NCBI GenBank assembly: GCA_000181795.3
Contig: CM012955.1
Location: 2,183,301 to 2,247,300, forward strand
DNA: 64,000 bases
Reading direction: 5' to 3'
Origin: Trichinella spiralis
Taxonomy: Eukaryota > Nematoda > Enoplea > Trichinellida > Trichinellidae
Below the pieces are notes generated by a model. It saw only the letters and a list, made by a program, of their open reading frames with translations. It did no database searches and was not told the DNA's origin. Made by a program: the position numbers and the translations under genes. Positions 11,957 through 63,726 of the stretch are shown here, piece by piece. Position 1 is the stretch's first letter. Each line of letters starts with the position of its first letter.

Positions 11957-12137
<181 letters not shown>

Positions 12138-21449: not shown

Positions 21450-24400
21450 TTACACATCACCAGTCCCAGTGGAAGAAAATTGTGATAAAATTTTAACAGG
21501 TTGCAAATCGCGTCGTTGTGAAGCACGGCGTATCACGCCGTGGGTCTGATGGTTTGCAGAAACATCTTGACGCATAGGTTCCATTGGTTTTCTGTTCGGT
21601 GTACGCATTTTCCAAACCACCAACGAAGACTCTTTCGCCTTCTTCGACGGATACTGTAATACAGTAGACGTAGTCCAATAAAAATCCCTTTAATTACAAA
21701 AACAAAAAACCAACATCTCGAAACAAATACCTTGGTACTGGCAATGTAGGCAGATTTTACTGTCAACACGACCGCATTAAGCAGATTTTTGGCCGCCTGA
21801 ATAAGCGACGTAGCCGATTCCAAAGCGCTCGCAATGAGCTCATTGCCGACCTGTTGAACGTCGGCTTTCACCTTGGAAGTGATGTTCAACTGGTGACAAT
21901 AGAGGGTAATGCGTTGCAAGTATGCGAGCAAATCTTTCTTTGTTTCCGATTCCACGCACTGACATTCACAAAAGTGGAAAAAGAAAAATAAATACAAGAT
22001 CAAGTTTTGCAACAAGTGGAAGAAAGAAAAATTACCTCATCTGCAATTCGTGTTGCCAAAGCATTCAACTTGGATCCGGCTTCGGAAATTTTTTTAGCAG
22101 CGTTGATCACATCCATTGTATTTTTCAACGGGCCACGTCCTCTGCAAAACAAACCAGCAGATTAAAATCAAACACCACCACCAACAACAACAACCAAATT
22201 ATTATTATTTAAATGGTCGACTTTTCGTTTAAGAGCGTTAAAACAAGACAACAAGAGACAAAAAAAAATACCTCGTAAAATCAGTCATCTGCAACATGAT
22301 ACAGCACATGTATTTAGCCAGAACAACAATGTCGTTGCCAGTTTCGTCCCATTTGGCAACTTCCCGTTCGAATTTGTGCTGTACAACTTTGAAAACGTCA
22401 ATCTGCTCTTGGATTTTCTTCTTATCCTCCTCAGGCAACTGGCGCATCAAATCCCGTCGATTATCTTCTTGACGTTTAGCATCGTCGGCTTTTTCAACAA
22501 CACTTGTGGTCTCTTTGTCATATTCGTACTCTTCGTCTGAATCGATATCACCAGGATCCCGGTTCATCAGCACCGCATGCCGAATATCCTGCACCGCGCG
22601 ATGCACCAAACCGCACACGTCGATCAACTCGTCCACGTCAACTTGACCGGCTGGTTTGCGGTTCAACTTCTCCACCGCTGCTTCAGCTTTTCGTGCAAAT
22701 TGTGGAATTGCTAAAAGCCCCAATATGCGAATAAAAATATTGAAAATGCCACAACATACCAGTGTTTCTTAATACTAGAACAGCTTTTTTGACATTTTCA
22801 CAATATAAATCCTGAGGTCGGAATTCCATGTCGGCATCAACCACTTGGCAAACTCGCAACGACCGTCCTCGAATCGCACCTGCACTGTGATCCAGCAAAT
22901 TCAAATCTTTTTGCACTACCGCCTGCGTTGAAATGTTTTTTTTTTGAAAATGCAAATTCAATTATACCAAATCACAACAACAGAACAAACGCTCACTTGG
23001 ATGCAATTTTTAACGTCTTCAACAATATGGGCCTCGGAGACGGCCAGAAAATCGTCCAGTGTGATGATGGAATCGACAGCCAGCGTCAACAAGTGGACAC
23101 GCTCTTCCCAAGCTTCACGAAATGCCTGCATGTTCTCCAAGGCCGGCTTGCTCTTGTGCCTGGCGGCAAGGAGACGAGCCGCGTTCACAACTTGGGCAGC
23201 CAGCTTTTGTACTTGCATTCCCGCGTAGCGGACCATCTTGATTCCGTCGCCTTCGGCCGACATTGTGCAAGTCAAATTCGCTACCTGGAAATTCAAGCAA
23301 CACAAACAGAAACGATTGTTGTTGTTGTTGTTGTTGGATTAATTTTTCACTTTTTACAAACAAACAAACAAAACAACCTCAACAAGCTTGTTGGCGTGGT
23401 CTAAAAAACTGACCGCGTGCTGTTCGGTAGCAGTGCGGTCGCCTTTCGAAGCCGAATCAATCATCAACAGCAACGGAATTTGAGTGTCCAAAAAACAGTC
23501 GGACACGTGGTCAATAACGGCCCGTCGCAAATGGCGCCTTAAATCACGCGTCTTACGACCAACATTGACCAACGCCATATCCAACGTTTCCAATTCTTCC
23601 TTGCGTCCAACCTGCGTTGATTTGGAAGGGAAAAGGAAAAAAAAATGCAACCACAAAAATGACATAATTAAAAATAAATGCGCATACATTTTTCTCGTAT
23701 TCCGTCAGTAAATCTTGCAACGCTTGGCGCACCGCGTTGCATTCTTGTACAATTCGATTTTTACGCTCGTCTCTGGTATTAGCACTGTCGGCAATGGCAG
23801 CTGCACCACTGATGATCGCTTCGAGCTGTGCTTCCAGAGCTGGGCGCATCACTTTGCCATTGTAACTGATCGGATCGACAAAAACACGCTGCTAAAAAAC
23901 CGACAAACAAAAATGTAATACGAAAGATGTTTGTAACATCTAATAATATATATACGTCGAATTCATTCAGAGCGGAAATTAGTTGACCAAGCTGAGCCGG
24001 TGGGACAGAGCTGTCCAAGTTGGGCTCATTTCCATTCAACAACTGCTCAATGTTGGCCAGAGCGGTGTTCATTTGGTTGAACGTAAATTCACGATTATGC
24101 CTAGCCGGGTCCACTTCCGGGTGACGAACGAACGCCTTGCAAGCACTGTGCAACATCGGGCAAGTTGTCTTTAGCACAGCACGAGCTGCCTGCAACAATA
24201 AAATAAATTACATTCCACTTTGACCGATACACATTTGCATAACGACGAAACACGAATCCAGCAAATGAACAATACTTGAATGCAATCGCTGTGCCAGGGA
24301 TCTTTCAAATCGGCAGCTCGTCGACCTGCATCACGATCTAACTGATCAATTTTTTTCTGCAAATCACGAAATCGCTCTTGCACTTCTTGGTGACTGTTCG

Positions 24401-27025: not shown

Positions 27026-27841
27026 NNNNNNNNNNNNNNNNNNNNNNNNNNNNNNNNNNNNNNNNNNNNNNNNNNNNNNNNNNNNNNNNNNNNNNNNNNN
27101 NNNNNNNNNNNNNNNNNNNNNNNNNNNNNNNNNNNNNNNNNNNNNNNNNNNNNNNNNNNNNNNNNNNNNNNNNNNNNNNNNNNNNNNNNNNNNNNNNNNN
27201 NNNNNNNNNNNNNNNNNNNNNNNNNNNNNNNNNNNNNNNNNNNNNNNNNNNNNNNNNNNNNNNNNNNNNNNNNNNNNNNNNNNNNNNNNNNNNNNNNNNN
27301 NNNNNNNNNNNNNNNNNNNNNNNNNNNNNNNNNNNNNNNNNNNNNNNNNNNNNNNNNNNNNNNNNNNNNNNNNNNNNNNNNNNNNNNNNNNNNNNNNNNN
27401 NNNNNNNNNNNNNNNNNNNNNNNNNNNNNNNNNNNNNNNNNNNNNNNNNNNNNNNNNNNNNNNNNNNNNNNNNNNNNNNNNNNNNNNNNNNNNNNNNNNN
27501 NNNNNNNNNNNNNNNNNNNNNNNNNNNNNNNNNNNNNNNNNNNNNNNNNNNNNNNNNNNNNNNNNNNNNNNNNNNNNNNNNNNNNNNNNNNNNNNNNNNN
27601 NNNNNNNNNNNNNNNNNNNNNNNNNNNNNNNNNNNNNNNNNNNNNNNNNNNNNNNNNNNNNNNNNNNNNNNNNNNNNNNNNNNNNNNNNNNNNNNNNNNN
27701 NNNNNNNNNNNNNNNNNNNNNNNNNNNNNNNNNNNNNNNNNNNNNNNNNNNNNNNNNNNNNNNNNNNNNNNNNNNNNNNNNNNNNNNNNNNNNNNNNNNN
27801 NNNNNNNNNNNNNNNNNNNNNNNNNNNNNNNNNNNNNNNNN
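27026..27841. other. Assembly gap (816 N)
   Basis: An unsequenced stretch, followed by isolated Ns at 27854, 27977, 28009 and 28014 that mark low-quality sequence on the right. The long minus-strand frames crossing it are artefacts of N translation. Confidence 0.99.
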
Positions 27842-28458
27842 GAACAATTTACANGGCAAAACCATTGCTTATGGTCATATTGAAAGTGCATGTTAGCTAC
27901 TGCAAAGGGTGATTTTCAAAATATCATACTTTAATAACAGATAAACAATGCGTACAGGGTGTATTTCATCAAACTTNAATTGTCGGCTAATTTGGCGTTT
28001 ATTAAGTCNACCTNCTCATCTCATGTTGTAAATTTTTCATAGAGAATATATTGAGAAATTATGCTCAATATCGATTCTCAACTGCATTGTTTATTGATTA
28101 TGACTTAAACATGATAAAAACTGCCACTTACTGCTAAATGCGCCATCTTCTCATTGTTCATGTTCATGCTCTTTCGGTGTTGAATAAAAATCTATTTTTC
28201 AGAAATTATTCCAAAAAATAATAATAAATAAAAAGCAAAAATAGTGTTTGGCTTCAATGTTTGTCTTCAATCAATTTTCCAATCAAAACGCTGAGCTACC
28301 ATCCACGGACGGCCTCAAATTGAAATGATTTCTATTATGTCAACAAAGCCAACGACCTCGCATGCAAATTTTTATTTTATTCATTTCTACTGATAAATAT
28401 GGCTACTGTAGATTTTTCATTGCTCTTTATTTACTTAATGCACTCTGTTTGAGGAGAA

Positions 28459-28577
28459 AATTTTATTGAAGCTTTGCCAAACATATAAACACTTCTCATT
28501 ACACAATGACCCTGTCCATTGTGTATGTTTGGTGGACGCTGCTCCAAATGAATTTGTATGTATCTGTGGTGATGCAG
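28459..28577 (+). pseudogene. Isolated WD40-like exon fragment (doubtful)
   Basis: A short open stretch with a plausible acceptor and a donor at GATGCAG|GTATTAG encodes a peptide with a WD-repeat look: HNDPVHCVCL, then a Gly-Asp-Ala turn. It has no neighbouring exons I could find, although the sequence to the left is gap and low quality. It could be one exon of a gene lost in the gap, a gene fragment, or chance. No WD dipeptide is present. Confidence 0.2.
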
Positions 28578-31500
28578 GTATTAGAATTCATTTTGACGTA
28601 GTGACTAATATGGTAGTTTGTTTGATAGCGGGGTACAGAAATAACGCATTATAAATAACAGAAAGCCAAAATACTTGTAAAATATTAATTTATTATGCTT
28701 TCGTCTTTCAAATTGTAGTTTTATATTGAGTCCCATCTAAATTGTACCTGAATAATCTATTTCCTACAGCAACCAATTTCTGTTTTAAAGCTTGAGTCTT
28801 ATTTGCATTGGAATTTTAATTACAAAGTTTTAGCATTTGGGCTGTAATTATAAGCCAATTTTTTAGCTTTTTAGCCAACTCTTTTTATTCTTTATTAATA
28901 TAGCATGAAAGTAATTCAGGTACTATGTGAAGATTAATCGTTGTATGTTATTTTTTGAGAATGTGTAGTTTTGAAATTAATTCATAATGGGATTGATGCT
29001 CAGCTGTTCATTACTCATTCAGTGTTGATCAGAATCTGTAAATTCTAGAATGCTAAATAATAAATGAATAAACATCTGGCAATCATTGTATCAGCGGTTG
29101 AAATGTTCTCATTTAATTGTTCGACAAATGGTAATAAATGCCTTCAAGATTATTCCTTGTTTTCAAGTTTGATAGAACTTGATGCGAACAAAACTTTCCA
29201 TGTTCGTCCCATGATTTTCACATTCGTGAACTGTATTTATTCCTCGCGGCAACTCAATCTTGGATAAGTTACTGCGCTGTAAATTATCAAACTTACGAAA
29301 AACAAAATTATCGATTCATTTACTAAAACCTTTATTTCGACAGAGGATATAGTATACAGAAATCTGAAGTGCGCCACGCACGCTATGGATTATACAACAA
29401 GCAGCGCTCACACGCGCCACGACACCACATTGCACTAACAGCAACAATAAAGGTGAGTTCATGCACACCGCTACATACATATAAATATACAATGCCACGC
29501 TCAGGTTGACGAGAACATCAGGCGTTTTATAACATCGCAGCCGGTTACCATCTGCATCGAACTCTTGTCGTTTCGTCAAGAACACAGCTTTATAGTACTC
29601 GTTAATACATTTTGCCTAGTTCAAATTTTCAATTTTAGATTTATCACTTATGAACGGTTATCATATTTTAATCAGTTATCAAGCCAATAATCATATCTCA
29701 TTATCAGATGTCATAATAATAACTTCTCACACATCTGAGGCAGGCAAGGCAATAAAGTCTCAAGCATCTACTCTACGCGGAGAGTCAGCTTTCCCCACTT
29801 CTGTCTTCAGATGCATGCTCACCATAAGCCCAATGATCAAAAGAAGAGCCGGCACTCTCTTATGTAAACGAAGAGAACTCCCTGCTACATGGTATGATGC
29901 TTTTTGATTTCTCCATACTATATCTGCTTTAATTTTAGGTCCTGCTCCAGGCATGTTTGCTATTTGCAACATCAGAGCCAAAACACTGCATTATTCAAAT
30001 GACAATCATACAGCTCTGTCTTAAACATAATTCTTAAACTATGAAAGAGCTTTTCCCTTTTCAAGTTCCTGCAACCTAGAATTATAGATTAGGGACTCAT
30101 GGATAACACCTTTTGTCTGTAGATTTGCTTCATGTTGTCCACGTCTCCATTCTTCTATATATCTGTAGAAATCACAAACATTAAAACAAAAGTTCATCAT
30201 ACATGCACATCCATCATCATGCATGCACTAGTACTTACAAATAGTGTGCGAAATTAAAGATGCAGTGTAGCTAGCATAATAACTTTATAGAAGTTTTTAT
30301 TCGTAAGTAAGATTTAGTTTTCCATAACTAAACTTTTTATTAAATTATCCATATCTCGCAAGAAAATTACGTAATGAGATTTTTCAAATTAGCGAAAACT
30401 ACATTATAAAGTAATCATTTTTATAAAAATTTAAAAACGAATCGGAAGGCTTCAAAAACAGTGTAGAATAATACAATAATAAGTTGTAATATTTTTCAAA
30501 TTGCAAATTAATTCGACAAAATTATGTAATTTGAAATAAGAGGTTTACATAATGATTTGAAAAAAATAAGCACAGAAACAAATAAGCGTAATTAGCATAT
30601 GTATGTATATTGTTCAAAGGTAAGGTTACGTTATATTCATTTCGTCATATTTTCCATATTTTCAATCAATTACGATCTAATCATAAAAATGCAACTCACC
30701 AAACTTAAATTTGCTTCATAATTTTGGACCATCTTGTTTTTCTGAAGTTCGATATTGCGATGAATCACTTTCCTCAAATAAAAATTAAATAAACGAAAAA
30801 TAGTAATCTCTATCATGGATGTATGACCGTTTTTATAGTGGAAAGGCACGCCGTTAGCCTACAATTCGCCCCAGATGAAGCTCACTAAGTGAATGTTATC
30901 TGCTTCTACTGTAAGCCACGTCAGCAAAGCAAACGCGCTCAGTTAATGAAATATTAATTCGCATATTTGATAAGTAATCTTCGCGTAGCGTTATAGGACT
31001 TGGAATAAGACTGCACTAAACTTCAATGCTAAATTACCGTTTTTATTGAAAATAATTTTCAACCTGCTCTTGATAATTTGACATTGAGTTTTCAAAATAG
31101 AATTGACCACAACCTAAAATATTATAATATCTTACATTTATCCCCTTATGACGGGCTGCAGCAATTATTGAACAACTGAATAAAATAATTCTCAGGAAAC
31201 GCTCTTTAACTAGATGTGAAATTTCAAAAATTGCACACACTGTATTACTTGGTTGTACATCAGTTATTAATTCAGTATGTATTTTCAGCTTTACTTTCAT
31301 TCAGCTTTCAAAGTTACTCACAGAAATGCAAGTTACTGATACAAATGTCATTTAGTTGTTGTGATCCATTATCTATTTGCTTATTTCTAATTTTTCAGTT
31401 CAAATTTTCATATGTTTTTTCAGAGATTTTCAGTACCAAATATGCTTTTCCAAAGCTAAAACTTTTGACGTGGTCCGCTTAAAAAATTATTTCTAACGAT

Positions 31501-32180
31501 GGAATGATTCTCATCCAATAAACTATATATCATTGCATTGAGCAGAACGTCAGTTATTTAACAGCATGATACACTTGCATTTTTATTTTCCATTTAAATT
31601 ACAATCTTTCCAAAGATGTTGATGAAATGGTTTAACAATGAAGTATCACAAATGACTGAATTATCAGATTATAAGTAAAAATACTTGAAATATTGCCAAC
31701 AATTTGTTCATTTATTGCTTCATTTAGTTCCTCAGATTGTTACGTCAAAACAATCGACTTTGTCAAAAAAAAATAGTGCAGCAAATTGCAATATTTGGCA
31801 ACAAAATAAGTTAAATGTTCATCATAAGCATGCTCTTGTTTGTCGTAGATGGATTTCCAAACATATATATTCGAAAAAATTATCAACATAAAAGTGTTTA
31901 TTTCGAAGGAATACTGTAATATATGGAACGCCTCATAAATTGTCAGATAAATTTGATGCTGCTTATTTCCGAAAAAATTATACATCATCGTGTAACGACC
32001 ATTATGAATGCTGATGATTTGCATAATATAATTAAATGATCACAAATATGCCATGAATAAAGAAAACCAGCATAAATGTGAACATAACAGCATTTCTCAT
32101 GACCAAATTTACCATGAATATATAGCAATATTTTAAGTTTTATTTCCCGCTGAACATTTAGTGTTAAAAATTATTTAATT
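28578..32180. other. AT-rich interval without a supported gene
   Basis: Apart from the weak cand­idate segment at 29760-30162, I see no homology, no consistent splice chain and no RNA gene. Base composition is slightly richer in GC at 29340-29960 than around it. Confidence 0.55.
29760..30162 (-). other. Candidate two-exon coding segment, unidentified
   Basis: Minus-strand exons 30162-30076 and 29985-29760 have usable splice sites and join in frame (AG + T). They give about 100 residues ending at a TGA at 29760-29762. The second exon has a hydrophobic stretch (VPALLLIIGLMV) followed by a charged tail, so a small membrane protein is possible. No start exon could be linked to it: an open segment at 30697-30770 has an incompatible phase. 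I recognise no family, and it may be chance. Confidence 0.2.
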
Positions 32181-32182
32181 CG

Positions 32183-32290
32183 ACTTTGAACAAAATAAGT
32201 ATTGATCTTTGTTTAATTTCACTTTAAACAAAATAAGTATTTATCTTTGTTTAAACTTTAAACAAAACGTGTTTGTTTGAAACTTTAAAA
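32183..32290 (+). promoter_or_regulatory. ~38-bp tandem repeat just upstream of a TATA box
   Basis: Two near-identical units of 38 bp start at 32183 and 32221. A third, degraded, starts about 32255. Each contains ACTTTRAACAAAATAAG and ATCTTTGTTTAA. The CTTTGTT core fits the HMG/SOX consensus (AACAAAG on the other strand) and TGTTTA fits forkhead sites. These are consensus matches only. The placement 10-115 bp upstream of the TATA box of the POU-like gene suggests a promoter element array. Confidence 0.5.
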
Positions 32291-32298
32291 TACAATGG

Positions 32299-32310
32299 TA
32301 TATATATAAA
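32299..32310 (+). promoter_or_regulatory. TATA box of the POU-like gene
   Basis: A TATATATATAAA stretch followed by GTGG lies about 55 bp upstream of a clear donor (32366). The first ATG downstream in the spliced transcript is the start of the 130-aa ORF, so a TATA box at this spot fits transcription from about 32330-32340. Confidence 0.55.
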
Positions 32311-32487
32311 GTGGAGAAATTCAGTTTCAATTCATTCGTGTGTTCAAAGGTGTTCGAAGGACGTGGTAAGAATTGAATGCTCTCTCCCATGAATACATTC
32401 GCCTAAAATGTTTTCCAATTTCAGATCCAAAGAACTGTTGGCGCTGAAAAAAGAAGAATTCTACCGAAACTATTTGACTGTATTGGA

Positions 32488-32880
32488 ATGAAGCAAAACA
32501 CCTCCATTATTAAAATTGAAAACATCCGATATATTCGGTGTGAAAATTACAACCGGCCGCCACTGATCAAGCCGCCTCGGCATAGAAGAACGAACGTTCC
32601 GGAATTTATTTTATCTCCTGAAGATGAAGAGATCATTGAGTTTGCAGAATTTTGTAGAAATCGCCGTGAAAGGCTTGGTTTGGACAGAGCAACACTCGCT
32701 ACAATACTGAATCAGATGTTCGATCACATTACTTTCTCTCCAATAATTATCGCTCACTTTGAAAAAGGAATCGATTTTCCAAAAAAAATGTGGAATATGA
32801 AGTATTATTTTCAACGATGGATCGACACATACAATGCAGTGTTCAACAAGCCGCCTGGATCAGAATCATTCAACGAATAA
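32488..32880 (+). CDS. Orphan POU-specific-domain-like protein, no homeodomain
   Basis: A 130-aa ORF in one coding exon. The transcript model has a TATA box (32299-32310), a 5'UTR exon ending at 32365, an intron 32366-32424 (GTAAG...TTTCAG), the first ATG at 32488, a TAA at 32878-32880, and AATAAA at 32962-32967. Residues about 48-115 follow the POU-specific pattern in order: FAEFCRNRRERLGL (family FA..F..RR..LG), an L..IL.QMF helix, FSPIIIAHFE (family FSQTTI.RFE), then K.M....Y.FQRWI (family K.M.KL.PLL..W). No homeodomain follows before the stop. Positions that contact DNA in Oct-type domains (the Q and T of SQTT, the R before FE) are P, I and H here. It may be a decayed transcription factor, a protein-binding adapter or a lineage-specific factor. 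Confidence 0.7.
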   Translation: MKQNTSIIKIENIRYIRCENYNRPPLIKPPRHRRTNVPEFILSPEDEEIIEFAEFCRNRRERLGLDRATLATILNQMFDHITFSPIIIAHFEKGIDFPKKMWNMKYYFQRWIDTYNAVFNKPPGSESFNE

Positions 32881-32961
32881 TTTTCCCAGATAATTTGAAA
32901 AAGTAATATTGAAATGTACTTTGTAAATTTTCATTTGTTCATAATTTTTCACTGGTCAAAT

Positions 32962-32967
32962 AATAAA
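32962..32967 (+). terminator. AATAAA polyadenylation signal of the POU-like gene
   Basis: A canonical hexamer lies 82 bp after the stop codon, within TAATAAATAAA. Its spacing is normal for a short 3'UTR and completes a self-contained small gene. Confidence 0.5.
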
Positions 32968-33230
32968 TAAATTTAATGATAACTGTGACATGCAATTATA
33001 CATTATATTATATTACATGATATCATATTAATAAATTACATAAAAACAGGCGCACACACATACACATGCATAATTGCATACTTTCAAAAATTATGCACGT
33101 ATGTATGTATTATTATTCTGTGTATTATGCAACAAAACAATAAACAATTTAGGATGAAAACAAAAATGAATACTCGTAAATGATGACACACTGATGCAGT
33201 GCTTGAAGACTTAGAACGGTGTTCATTCAC

Positions 33231-33302
33231 CTTCTCTTCTGCTCGGCTTAACTTTTCATGCATCACTTTGGCATAAAAACTGCTGCAGTTGCACACCGCC
33301 AT
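33231..33302 (-). other. Short ATG-initiated open exon just after the MARCHF6 stop
   Basis: Five bases past the MARCHF6 TGA an ATG opens a 24-codon frame ending at a good donor (AAG|GTGAAT). No downstream exon joins with a convincing product: the nearest phase-compatible one near 30770 gives a 42-aa peptide. It is probably just 3'UTR sequence. A small downstream gene or alternative last exon cannot be excluded. Confidence 0.15.
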
Positions 33303-33307
33303 GATAA

Positions 33308-36300
33308 TCAGACGACAAGTGAAGACAAAGCTCTTTCGTCGCGCTTTGAATCAAAATTCACTAAACGCTGTCCAAGCAAATATCTAAAATTTTAATACTT
33401 ATAAAACCCAGCCTATCCTGATAGAACAATAAGCAGACAAGTAAGTATGTAAAACTCACAAACCTTTCATTTCGAATTTTTCCCATCATTGCTTTAATTT
33501 TTTTAAATTGCCAGGCGAGGAACACGAAGAGCAAAAAAAATGAAAACATGCCTGGGTAAATTCGTTTTCCATATTGTAACTGATCTTCCGCATCGCAGCC
33601 TGAAAATATTACAAACGTTGGATGATTGGCAGAGAAAAATAACTCTCTTCCGGTTGTACCTAAAATAGGAAATATTGCATATACAATCGTATACGGTACA
33701 GCCAACAAATTCCCGAACAATAAAAAAAGAGGCAATACAGCGTTGGTCATAAATGCTTGCAAATCCATATTTCGAGGACCATCTCGGTATAACTGCAAAA
33801 TTCAATATTTTTAAGCAATGTATTGTTTTGTTTTTAAAGTATAACAAAATCATGTACTGTTTCAAAAGCACGTCGCATTCTCCAGTTCGGACCGATTGTA
33901 ACCATACAAACGCAAAATATTTTGCAATAAAACGCACCAAGAAGCCAAATCTGTGGATAAAGTAAAAAGAAAAAACTGTCCGCAAAATACATCATTTTGA
34001 TTCTGGCATACCATAAACAGGCAAGGCAAGGCAGTACCAAATCTGGGTACCCGAAGTGGAGCAACAATCATTAATTCAACCAAAAAACCAAACATAAACG
34101 CCACCAATCCAAAATAAGAAATCACGGCCACTACAAAACGCAGCCAATTGATGAGAACCTGCAAAAGAAATGCCATAAAATTAAATTATAATTGAATAAG
34201 TAAGTGTTAATTTCTTACAGTACTAAGCCATGCCTTTGCATCATCAGCAAGCATTTTAAAATCCCGTGGTATATAACTGAATGACACCGTAAACAGGCGA
34301 ATCAACATGCAACAAATGTACAAACCGCAGCTCAAAGTATACAGCTCATAGTGACTGTCCGTTCCAGTGATGCAATGCATCAATTTTCGACCAATAGTCA
34401 CTAAAATACACCTGATGCAGACAAAAGAAACCAACCCTTTAAAATGTTCACATTATACCTGGAACTGTCAGTGCAATCAAACTGAAAGTGATGGAAGAAA
34501 CGCAAATAACTAACAGCAGTGCAATGATCTAAAAATTATAATAATTATCATCTGAAATTTTTCTATTGACTCGGTTATTAAGCGCGCAAAAACAGATACT
34601 CGAAAGAAAAAATAAGGCGGCTTCACATATGGCTGGTGCTGAGTAGATGATCGACCACCAATAAGAAGCATGTGATGCGCTGCACCCAGATTTCGATCCA
34701 AATCTTCTTCTAGAACTCCAAACTCTGCGGCCAAAAGGTGTCTTCCACGATCGTTTTGCTGCTCTCTCGGCACTGCCCCGTTGTTCTAAGTTCAACAATT
34801 CGTACATCACCATATTTATACTGCAAATTTTGCATCTCACCTCACGTGATAAAAGATAATCCGTCAAACCTAGCAGTTTGCCGACTACTTTGCACCAACG
34901 AAAAATGAGCACTTTCAAAATTTGCCTTGTGTGGCTTTGTTCCAATAAAGTAGGTAAAATTACTTGAAGCAACAACAGTTCAAAAAACAACGACAAGAAC
35001 GGCAAATCACTGAAAATGAATATATGCAAACTTTTTACCAGCACTTTCATATTCATAAAATGCGTTATGATGCATACATGTAGACGCAGATCAACATAAA
35101 AGTAATTAAACATCATAATGCTTCAAATAATAATCATTTTCAAAATTAAAGACAATCTTAAAGGTTTATACGACAAGAATTACAGTATGAAAAATTTATA
35201 TTATTTGGCATTCAAAAACTATTATAACTCTTAAAAAACTTAAATAATATTCCTTTAACATTACAGTATGAAAATAATAAAAGTAATGAATTCAAGTTCA
35301 TATAATCAGAAATGTTTTGAAAAATATTAAAAGATGGTGAAAGACTAAATATTTCGGTAATACCCTTTTAAATAATTCCATGTAACTATTACTGAAAATC
35401 ACACGCTAGAAAATACACATAATCGAAATGTTATATAAATTAAAAATATCATTTGAATGCGGATAAGGGTCAGTAAAAATGCATTACCTCCTATTTGAAC
35501 CTCGATAGGGAAGTGTGGAGGGCATAAATCGAAGAATAATTCGAAATGGACAGTAAACGCAAATCAGTATAGTCAACGCAAATACCAGCTGAAATGTTAA
35601 AAAAAGCATCACTAAATAAAACTTCTACAGTGAAAAGTAATACAATAAATCGACATACCACCGAAGCAAGAAATCGACGCACATGTCGAATCACTGGATA
35701 TTGCACCATCTATAATAAAAAATCAGCTTAAAATAGACAAAAATTTTCAAACAAAACAAAAAGAATACTTCTTGTATTGGATTAAAATCGGGATCGTTGA
35801 CGTTGCGCAAAAACCAAAGAACACCAGGCCGCATTACTTCTCGCAGTATTAAAATGAATGATGCAAAATAAAAAACGTAAACCATGCCGACTAACCAATG
35901 AACAAACAGTGAAAGTTCTGGTGCATCATAAAACCATTTTAGTCGACTCTCGGGAGTCTCCGCAAATAATGGCTTAAAAATATTTAAACATAAAAAATAT
36001 TCCACTGAAATTTTACGTCCATATTTAATGATGACTACTAACCAGAGAACACATGTCCAACCACCAGCCGCAAAACAACGGAAAAACACCAACTTCAATC
36101 AAAACAATTAAAACCACCTTTAGCATCAAATAACACATACCCAAGGTCCTGTGGAATCTGCAACAAAATACAAAATTAGTTAAAAAAATTTCTTTCAAAT
36201 GTAAAACTGTAGCATACCTAACCAATCTCAGTGCGCCGCACAAGGCATGACAAAGGAAAAGCAAAAAGCCCAAAATGAAATATCCAAGCACAGTGGTTAT

Positions 36301-54316: not shown

Positions 54317-57300
54317 TTACAGGTATACTTTTTTTGTTTTGTAATCACGCGGCAATGTTCCATTTTTCACAGTAAGCAGATCTTTTTCACTTCGTCTGTC
54401 CGGATAAGTCATCGTCATGCCGGCTTCGTTCAGCTTGCCAACAGTCAAATGCGACATGTAAGCTTCGCTGTGATCAGTTCGACTGTTCAACGTTTTTCTC
54501 AACGGTGAGTCATAGCTCGGCACCGCTTCAAATGGAATTTTCCAACGAGCAAACCGATAGCCAAGCAAAAATGACACTGCGGATGCTACAGTCAACGTGA
54601 CCACAACCGCAATTACCAAATACTCGGCTGTATAAATTGGCCTTGATTCCACCAACGGATATGCGGAATTGAAATCTAAAACAAATTGTATGCTCAATTT
54701 GGTCCATCACAAGTGCTGCCGTGAACAAACAACAAATACAAAATCTGAAGATTTACCGTTCGTATAAAATCCTTCTTCTGAAGACGCTAAAAAAGATCAA
54801 TTACATTAATTAGATATATATAATATTTACATAAAGTTGGAAAAATAATGCTAAAATCCCATTACTGTCCATGCACAACGGAGATTGACCTGAAGAAACA
54901 CTTTGTGCAAAATCGCTTTCCGACCAATTCCTGAAAAAACTTATCATATTATAAAGATTTCAACTTTCAAATGATGTCTAGAATTTTCTCATATAAAAAA
55001 CAATTTCTCAGAGATTTATTTTTAAAAAAAATACAATCTATGAGGGTCATGGCCAAAGGTCAGGTCAGAAGCATGGAAGAGAGAAAAAAAAAAGAAAAGC
55101 AACTATTACTACTACTATTCCAACAACAACAACACCAGAAAAAAAACTTACCCACTGACAGTGCTCACACACTGATTATGAATTAGATCCCACGCGCAAT
55201 ATGGATCTTGCAATTGGGTGCATGTTCTACAGCTGGTCTTATTGGCACAATAATGTGCAGGAACCAATTTCAACTGATCATTAGTAGATATCAAAAGTGA
55301 CACCGTTTTTCGATTCGCTTCGTCAGAATGCACCAGACGGATGTCCAAGATTGGAAGTTGGTCGGCAAAATAATGAACAGTTTCAATCAAAACAGATTTC
55401 ACTTTTGTATCTTGTGCAACATTCACGTATTTCAGCACCCGACCGTCGTTTGTTCCCACAAACAGCACATTGTACGGAAAACCGCTGACTGATTGGACAA
55501 CATCAACAGCAAGCGCAGTAAACTTATATCTGCAAAAATACGGCAAATTTTATCCAGGCAAAAAAAGATCTACTGCTACTACACTACTACTACTACTACT
55601 ATAAAAGTAAATTATTATATGTTTTTTGTAGCTTTGGAAAAAATGACCAAAATATGTTTACGAGTTCGAATTTTCACAAACACTTCAGGCCAAGGTCAGC
55701 TTACCCTAAAGATGTATCCACTACTAATGGTTGTTCAAAGTAATTTGGTACGGCGTCGCTCAGCAAACTGTGCATGCGAACAAAATTAACCGCACGTTCT
55801 CCGAGGGTTTTTGAATTGGCTTGACACTACAACAAAAATATGCACAAGCGAATATTAACAATACAGAAGAAGAAAAATGCATAAATTTATACATCGCCAG
55901 GTCTAGGATTGGGCAAGTTTGATTTGTATACGGGCAACCACAGCGAAGATGGACTCTTTTGGACTTTGAATGGACCGTTGTTGAAAATATAACGCACATC
56001 TTCCATGCTGAAGGCACAAATAGCCGAAGCTCGCAGAGCTGTAGATGGTGTGTTGAAAATGGCATAAATTAATTCCGTCTTTTTTCCATTCCGTTCGGTG
56101 ATTACCAAATTGCTTGTTGCAGCTAAAATTGAAAAAAATAAAACCTCCAACGAAGTGAATAGGGCATGAAAATAAATGTCCATAAATCAACTAGTCAGCT
56201 ATTTGAGAAAAGTTGAGAAATAGATTTGCAAATTAGTAATAGAATTTATATAATTGCACTATGGGTTTTGCACGCTGAACTGAACGAACAAATGACCGGA
56301 CCGATGTTAATTTTAAGCACACAGACGAACAGCTTCTGCTTAATCTCATCATCATATAGCACATGGCGTCATGTTTTGAAGCCAACAGAACAAAAAACTG
56401 TTGCCTCTTGGCTGATGCACCAGCAATTGCAAACAACTGTGGTGAGCTGACTTTTAAAATGTACTCTACTTTCACAGTACTTTTGTTTTCATTAAAAACT
56501 TGCAACTAATGCTTAACTTCAGCTTATAAAATAAATAATCGATCAAACTGCGCTGTGTGCTTTTCAGAATAAAGTTTCAAGATTATAAATTTGTATTCAC
56601 TATCAGTCAGTTAAGCGTATCTATTGCAAAACACTTGAACAGAAAACTAGTAATAGTAGTAGTATTATGCAAATCGCACAATGCAAACACACCCTAAGCC
56701 CTAGTCATAGTAGCGATCACAGTTAAGCAAACAACAACTAGACCAATTCAATTCCTCAACGTAAGAATATACCAGCCGTCGGAGAAAATTTTCCTATTGA
56801 GTAATCAACGTATAGGATAAATAATAATAATAATATGAATATGAATAAATTTTTGCAAAAATATGCCAATCAAATTTACCAATTTCATTAAAGTAGAACG
56901 GTACATGGCCTGACAAGGAACAATTCAGTCGAGCTTTGATATAAGTGGTCCAAGTGTCTGCGTCAGGTTTGTGATCACCCTGATCCGACTTGCAAACTCT
57001 GGCAATTCTGCTGAACACAGCCGTTCCACAGTTGTTATATTCAGCTGCCGCTTCGCGGAACCAAAAATAAATACTATCGCCATCGTCCAAGGATGAAACA
57101 AAGTGTGGATCTTGAATATTTTTATAATTAAGAAAAGTAAAACAAACATTTATTTATAATATTTCTGTTGGACAAATGAATTTGCCATTATTACCACTCA
57201 AAAATTTCATATCGTATCGTTTTGTACGCAATTCAGCCGTAGGACCAGACAATGGTTTACGGTAAATCAGCGGCAAAGAACCAGAAAAGTCGGCAAATGT

Positions 57301-63370: not shown

Positions 63371-63559
63371 GGTCTAGCAAATAAAATCTAAAACTCTCAA
63401 GAGAAGAGGTTATCTTTCTCAAAAATACACACATGACAAATTTAACTGTAACGAAATGTTCTTCCTACTTCAAAAATCAAAGAAAAAAAAATAATAATAA
63501 TAATATAATCTCTCCTAATAATTATCATTATAAAAATGAAAATATTGAAAAAGCATTGA

Positions 63560-63726
63560 TTGGCGCCTTTTGCAAAATCGAACATTGACCAGCTCCATTC
63601 TCAAATCATGATGATGCCTCGAGGCAGCTTTGAATATTTGCATATTTAAATAAGCTTAATTCAAACTGATGCTAATTGACTGATAACGAAAAACGGTGCT
63701 ACGCTATACCAAAATTGTACCAGAAA

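Follow-up and report, generated by a model that had tools for sequence, protein, structure and literature searches.

A Trichinella spiralis gene encoding a POU-specific domain without a detectable homeodomain and with altered octamer-contact positions

Here we analyze a small gene of Trichinella spiralis that lies in a 64,000-nucleotide stretch of contig CM012955.1 (positions 2,183,301 to 2,247,300; the window in what follows) and that encodes a POU-specific (POU-S) domain with no detectable homeodomain. The coding sequence is a single exon on the forward strand (32488..32880, stop included), which specifies a protein of 130 amino acids (aa) and was delimited by the open reading frame (ORF) and the orthologues P0002 and P0003. 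The first-pass annotation of this DNA had noted a POU-S helix pattern in the ORF (FAEFCRNRRERLG, FSPIIIAHFE and KKMWNMKYYFQRW), and a profile search confirmed it: the Pfam POU-S profile, PF00157, matches residues 46-113 with 28.8 bits (cut-off 27) and an E-value of 1.2e-6. PF00157 was the sole Pfam family for the protein at E<=10, a listing from which the HMMER filters discard most matches above about 0.1, and at this threshold neither a CUT or HNF-1 N-terminal profile nor a prokaryotic lambda-repressor-like helix-turn-helix (HTH) profile gave a match. The domain, supported by both profile match and predicted structure, is encoded at 32623..32826 (+). It is preceded by a basic arm, KPPRHRRTN (residues 28-36; 32569..32595, +), which reads KPPRDKRTN in P0003 and may be a nuclear signal or a DNA arm. 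Within the domain, alignment and structural register place the recognition-helix segment SPIIIAHFE (residues 84-92; 32737..32763, +), in which the octamer contacts are replaced. When order-1 Markov sequences were modelled on 28001-33400, any ATG ORF of at least 130 aa, on either strand, was obtained in 7 of 500; a chance ORF at 32488-32880 is untenable because of the homology and the conserved orthologues.

The surroundings of the coding sequence form a plausible gene layout, as judged from the nucleotides alone. A putative GT-AG intron of the 5' untranslated region is located at 32366..32424 (+), and once this pair is spliced the ATG at 32488 is the first one; 32424 might just as well be the trans-splice acceptor that ends an outron, which would leave the first ATG unchanged. 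Two overlapping putative AATAAA polyadenylation signals are found at 32962 and 32966 (32962..32971, +). These elements of the small-gene layout proposed earlier hold up, and the proposed TATA box does not. The TATA-like TATATAAAG (32303..32311, +) has its sole copy in the window at this place, yet 0.86 copies are expected in the shuffled window, so that it is no more than chance and no evidence of a promoter by itself.

No homeodomain was found C-terminal to the POU-S domain of this gene, whose stop ends at 32880. In the genome searched (53.1 Mb in 14 contigs, with the window on contig 3) the Pfam homeodomain profile PF00046 gave 103 matches at E<=1, none of which lies in C3:2183301-2247300, and in a control the same profile recovered 3/3 POU homeodomain genes. 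Hidden Markov models (HMMs) of the homeodomain were also built from the three POU homeodomains of this genome, from three Trichuris ones and from both sets, and with filters off they found nothing above 12.9 bits in the 2732 window ORFs. Two pieces were considered and attributed to chance: one at 854-955 (+; 12.9 bits, E 0.011, 9 positions), which is short and far off, and one at 63518-63655 (-; 12.4 bits, E 0.024, 16 positions), a recognition-helix-like scrap on the opposite strand, likewise short and far off. Runs of at least 10 N bases are present in the window at 12128-12137 and 27026-27841, both upstream of the gene, and no long gap lies downstream. By profile scoring P0002 and P0003 have no homeodomain either, and the earlier claim that the gene ends without one is upheld. 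The controls also mark the reach of these profiles: the Trichuris-only profile missed the ordinary POU homeodomains of L012-L014 and is narrow, the POU-type profile has positive controls only among its own training rows, and a homeodomain too diverged for all profiles would escape.

A search of a 5.8 billion-protein database, from which 20 word-sharing candidates were taken, gave two relatives at E<=1, both from Trichinella. P0002 of T. britovi (from a cluster of 8 sequences) has 95% identity to the window protein and P0003 of T. zimbabwensis (from a cluster of 3) has 76%, and they score 29.7 and 28.0 bits, respectively, with PF00157. The open frame has a similar length in the three species and the deposited models of two species end alike. 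Across the three rows the POU-S domain and the arm before it are better conserved than the rapidly changing N- and C-termini. Within the sensitivity of this search, the matches support a gene restricted to the Trichinella lineage, as had been proposed. The description of the domain as an orphan had to be given up, since homeodomain-less orthologues are found in two other Trichinella species and two more POU-S-only loci in the same genome.

The structure predicted for the window protein has the four-helix POU-S fold. When the model was compared with known structures, POU chains came well ahead of others, and model residues 45..116 were matched with residues 5..75 of 1oct (the ends of the VIA-align range); the case for the fold is made by the ranking, the Z and the sequence profile taken together. 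For a second model an alignment of 13 rows was used, with P0004, P0006, P0010, P0011 and P0015 left out. Sequence alignments put the single residue that the protein has in excess of Oct-type domains in the helix 2-3 loop. In the resulting register Q27, Q44, T45, S48, R49 and R20 of Oct-1 correspond to R67, P85, I86, A89, H90 and R60 of the window protein, and the replacements are Q27R, Q44P, T45I and R49H. R60, R67, P85, A89 and H90 are identical in the three orthologous rows, and I86 is V in P0003. We take Q27 and S48 to be further DNA-contact positions of POU-S. The residues for the octamer half-site (Gln44, Thr45, Arg49 and, presumably, Gln27) are absent, with P85, I86, H90 and R67 instead. 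Gln44, Thr45, Arg49 and Arg20 are described as Oct4 contacts in PMC4720428. Because these contact positions are replaced and nearly fixed in the three orthologues, canonical octamer reading by the window protein is unlikely. The first-pass annotation had reached the same view from the P, I and H replacements, which are correct by the 1oct register and the sequence alignments; the replacement of Q27 by R67 was absent from it. The net charge of the POU-S domain is -1 in the window protein vs +3 in Oct-1 and POU3F1.

At least six POU-S loci were found in the genome. In L001, L002 and L003 the homeodomain is in the same open frame as the POU-S domain, and in the other three, namely the window gene, L004 and L005, no homeodomain was found. 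L004 encodes P0004 in a 362-aa ORF (L009:2453-3538, contig C1 around 7893043), and no homeodomain match above 9.1 bits turned up when about 16.5 kb of downstream and 13 kb of upstream sequence were searched. Its Trichinella relatives P0005, P0006 and P0007 are POU-S only, and the Trichuris members P0008, P0009 and P0010 combine POU-S with a divergent homeodomain that scores about 28 bits; the simplest reading of these sequences is that the homeodomain of this family was lost in the Trichinella line. In L005 (L011:5013-6092, contig C1 around 5149719) POU-S is encoded in two exons, after which comes a tail that ends in a stop of its own; about 24 kb downstream were searched for a homeodomain and nothing above 6.0 bits was seen. 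The exon joins inferred here agree with the deposited models. L005 is represented by P0011-P0014 in T. britovi, T. zimbabwensis and T. pseudospiralis, and all of these carry POU-S only; the T. nativa model, P0015, is partial and matches no Pfam family. The L005 tail (88/88 identical in T. britovi, 87 in T. zimbabwensis and 86 in T. pseudospiralis) is better conserved than the POU-S-bearing part (81/90, 81 and 78), and at E<=1 it matched itself alone in its own genome and one PDB chain (E 0.13).

The names given by the sources to these homeodomain-less genes are in conflict. P0011-P0014 are called ceh-6, "class 3, transcription factor 1-A" or "POU domain, class 2, transcription factor 3", and P0005-P0006 are called "POU domain protein CF1A" or "Protein nubbin"; since the same Trichinella genes carry conflicting names, the class should not be trusted from them. 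Another observation on deposited proteins is that the Pfam listing of P0016 (Ovis aries POU2F3 isoform X3) has POU-S and no homeodomain, and therefore homeodomain-less products are deposited for an ordinary POU gene too.

One question that is raised by these loci is where the window gene comes from. Its POU-S domain shares 21-22 of 74 columns with the P0004 family, 16-20 of 68-73 with nine classical POU domains and 14 of 73 with the L005 family; with the five other POU-S domains of the genome the range is 14 to 21 of 71-74 columns. The helix 2-3 loop length of the window family is found in just 4 of the 16 outside rows of our tree, all of the P0004 family, and this match, a single character, favours kinship with P0004. 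The tree itself (19 rows and 74 columns, with P0006, P0007, P0010, P0011, P0012, P0015, P0016 and P0018 left out) does not place the window family, and its bootstrap had not settled. Measured by path, the family lies closest to POU3F1 and L001 among the outside rows rather than to P0004, and it sits on a very long stem (4.12 changes per column). In approximately unbiased tests (p-AU) none of five groupings was either rejected or established: window rows with the P0004 family gave 0.083 and with its Trichinella rows only 0.337, window rows with L005 0.268, window, P0004 and L005 together 0.306, and the P0004 family with L005 0.265. An N-terminal kinship of the window protein with the P0004 family, by way of a look-alike I.C...N stretch, was discarded, as 109 to 858 of 1000 shuffles were as good or better in 12 comparisons. 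The window gene most likely descended from a POU gene after loss of the homeodomain half, because the P0004 family shows such a pattern. Either a repurposed fold or a fast-evolving factor, the alternatives offered in the first-pass annotation, may apply to the gene.

In the neighbourhood, a 38-bp tandem repeat (2.1 copies; 32174..32254, +) was found by repeat search just upstream of the putative promoter. The octamer ATTTGCAT is present 21 times in the window vs 11.96 expected, and 1 of 100 shuffles reached 21; one copy, at 32017-32024, precedes the TATA-like box by about 280 bases. Eight neighbouring ORFs were tested singly by Pfam and four matched: LDL-receptor class B repeats (1946-2593, +), a piece of the vinculin family (22238-22765, -), a piece of the MARCHF6 C-terminal domain (33361-33801, -) and Sema and PSI domains (55148-55549, -).

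Compared with the POU class (Oct-1, Pit-1, Brn, UNC-86, CEH-6), the window protein has the POU-S domain with a predicted four-helix fold, arginine at Oct-1 position 20, FE closing helix 3 and W in helix 4, but it has no homeodomain, it has R, P, I and H for Q27, Q44, T45 and R49, and its helix 2-3 loop is one residue longer than that of Oct-type domains. Because the homeodomain and the contact features are missing, it is a POU-S protein of a homeodomain-less kind, outside the POU homeodomain class. The P0004 family resembles it in having the top POU-S identity outside the window family, the same loop length and Trichinella members also without a homeodomain; it differs in the divergent homeodomain of the Trichuris members and in both contact glutamines, which P0004 has. 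The L005 family shares POU-S without a homeodomain, but has an intron inside POU-S, an Oct-like helix 3 (SSTTISRFE in this genome) and its own conserved tail. In the literature, POU genes are described as tripartite, homeodomain included (PMC4245813), and a 2015 review states that no case was known of a POU domain lacking the homeodomain (PMC4901127). The statement of the first-pass annotation that the two DNA-binding halves always act together agrees with this review but fails in Trichinella, with its three homeodomain-less POU-S genes. A precedent exists in another domain: the same review describes that Pax1/9 and Poxn lost the homeodomain and that nematode NPAX proteins retained the PAI subdomain only, and it treats such a loss as unknown for POU (PMC4901127). 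Our searches of open-licence PubMed Central literature found no report of stand-alone POU-S genes. For T. spiralis, TsPou3f2-a and a further 6 POU-domain proteins have been named; a second class II protein is mentioned, and a role of one of the two as regulator of the stichosome is suggested. In the text available there is no remark on missing homeodomains (PMC11731790).

Based on these data, we consider it probable, with moderate confidence in the combined statement, that the window gene is real in Trichinella and encodes a POU-S protein without a homeodomain, which acts as a small nuclear regulator with altered contacts. The anatomy, that is, a POU-S domain, no detectable homeodomain and conservation in three species, is highly secure. 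For the mechanism, a nuclear regulator with no canonical octamer reading and with altered DNA or partner contacts, we see about even chances. A POU gene would have lost its homeodomain half and left a stand-alone POU-S gene in Trichinella. The product would be nuclear, as the arm KPPRHRRTN suggests, and would not read the ATGC octamer half-site in the classical POU-S manner; it may work as a small regulator that touches DNA through a changed and probably weak interface, binds partner proteins, or does both, and the two other POU-S proteins of Trichinella that lack a homeodomain may work beside it. Several points weigh against this picture. The Pfam score is just 1.8 bits above its cut-off, Foldseek with the predicted model gave no match at E 0.001, and the input alignment of the good model included other POU proteins, which may steer the model. 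The domain charge is a weak sign against DNA binding, as P0004, in which both contact glutamines are kept, has the same charge. In addition, the three family rows compared are the window protein and two cluster representatives, P0002 and P0003, and the case for descent through loss of the homeodomain comes from the P0004 family and not from the window gene itself.

Other explanations can be suggested. One option, conceivable but rather unlikely, is that the protein is a DNA-binding factor in its own right, whose recoded recognition helix directs it, alone or as a homodimer, to a new specific site. Such a factor would fit the HTH fold, predicted intact, the arginine (R60) still present in all three rows at the equivalent of Oct-1 R20 and the nearly fixed replaced residues of helix 3, but the loss of Q27, Q44 and R49 takes away the usual contacts, the domain is slightly acidic, and POU-S alone binds DNA weakly. 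To a competitor or adaptor, which would titrate POU or other homeodomain partners or cofactors as a natural dominant-negative, we give the same low likelihood. Classical POU-S domains bear partner surfaces. Cofactor contacts are also described in PMC4901127; moreover, the protein is small, nearly domain-only and without a homeodomain, and the same genome has three POU-homeodomain genes, but the identity to the genome's five other POU-S domains is low. That the gene is a decaying POU fragment on its way out is improbable: the very long stem, the lost contact residues and the fast N- and C-terminal ends would agree with decay, but the open frame is of similar length in three species and the domain and arm are more conserved than the ends. 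An ordinary POU gene with a distant homeodomain exon is very improbable; a long intron is formally possible, but there are an in-frame stop ending at 32880 and nearby polyadenylation signals, the remaining 31 kb of the window have neither a homeodomain match nor a long gap, and the deposited models of two species stop at the same place. A non-POU lambda-repressor-like HTH protein is hardly credible, given PF00157 as sole Pfam family and the lead of POU chains in structure.

Returning to the homeodomain-less nuclear regulator that we prefer, a wider proposal can be made, tentatively and with somewhat less than even confidence: the POU module may have been uncoupled in Trichinella, in which a minimum of three homeodomain-less POU-S genes, retained from species to species, would together make up a group of regulators that work without that domain. 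The window gene would be the most derived of them, its recognition helix having been remodelled to fit a new DNA site or to contact proteins. Another of the three carries the name of a class 2 POU factor in two species, and one member of that class has been proposed as a regulator of the secretory stichosome. The finding bears on this published stichosome idea (PMC11731790) in that P0013 and P0014, named class 2 by their sources, have no homeodomain; the T. britovi copy of this gene goes by another name, and the proteins that the paper places in class II may be different ones. With three homeodomain-less genes in one genus, one of them with homeodomain-bearing kin in Trichuris, both the action of POU-S alone and the splitting of the POU-S and homeodomain pair become testable.
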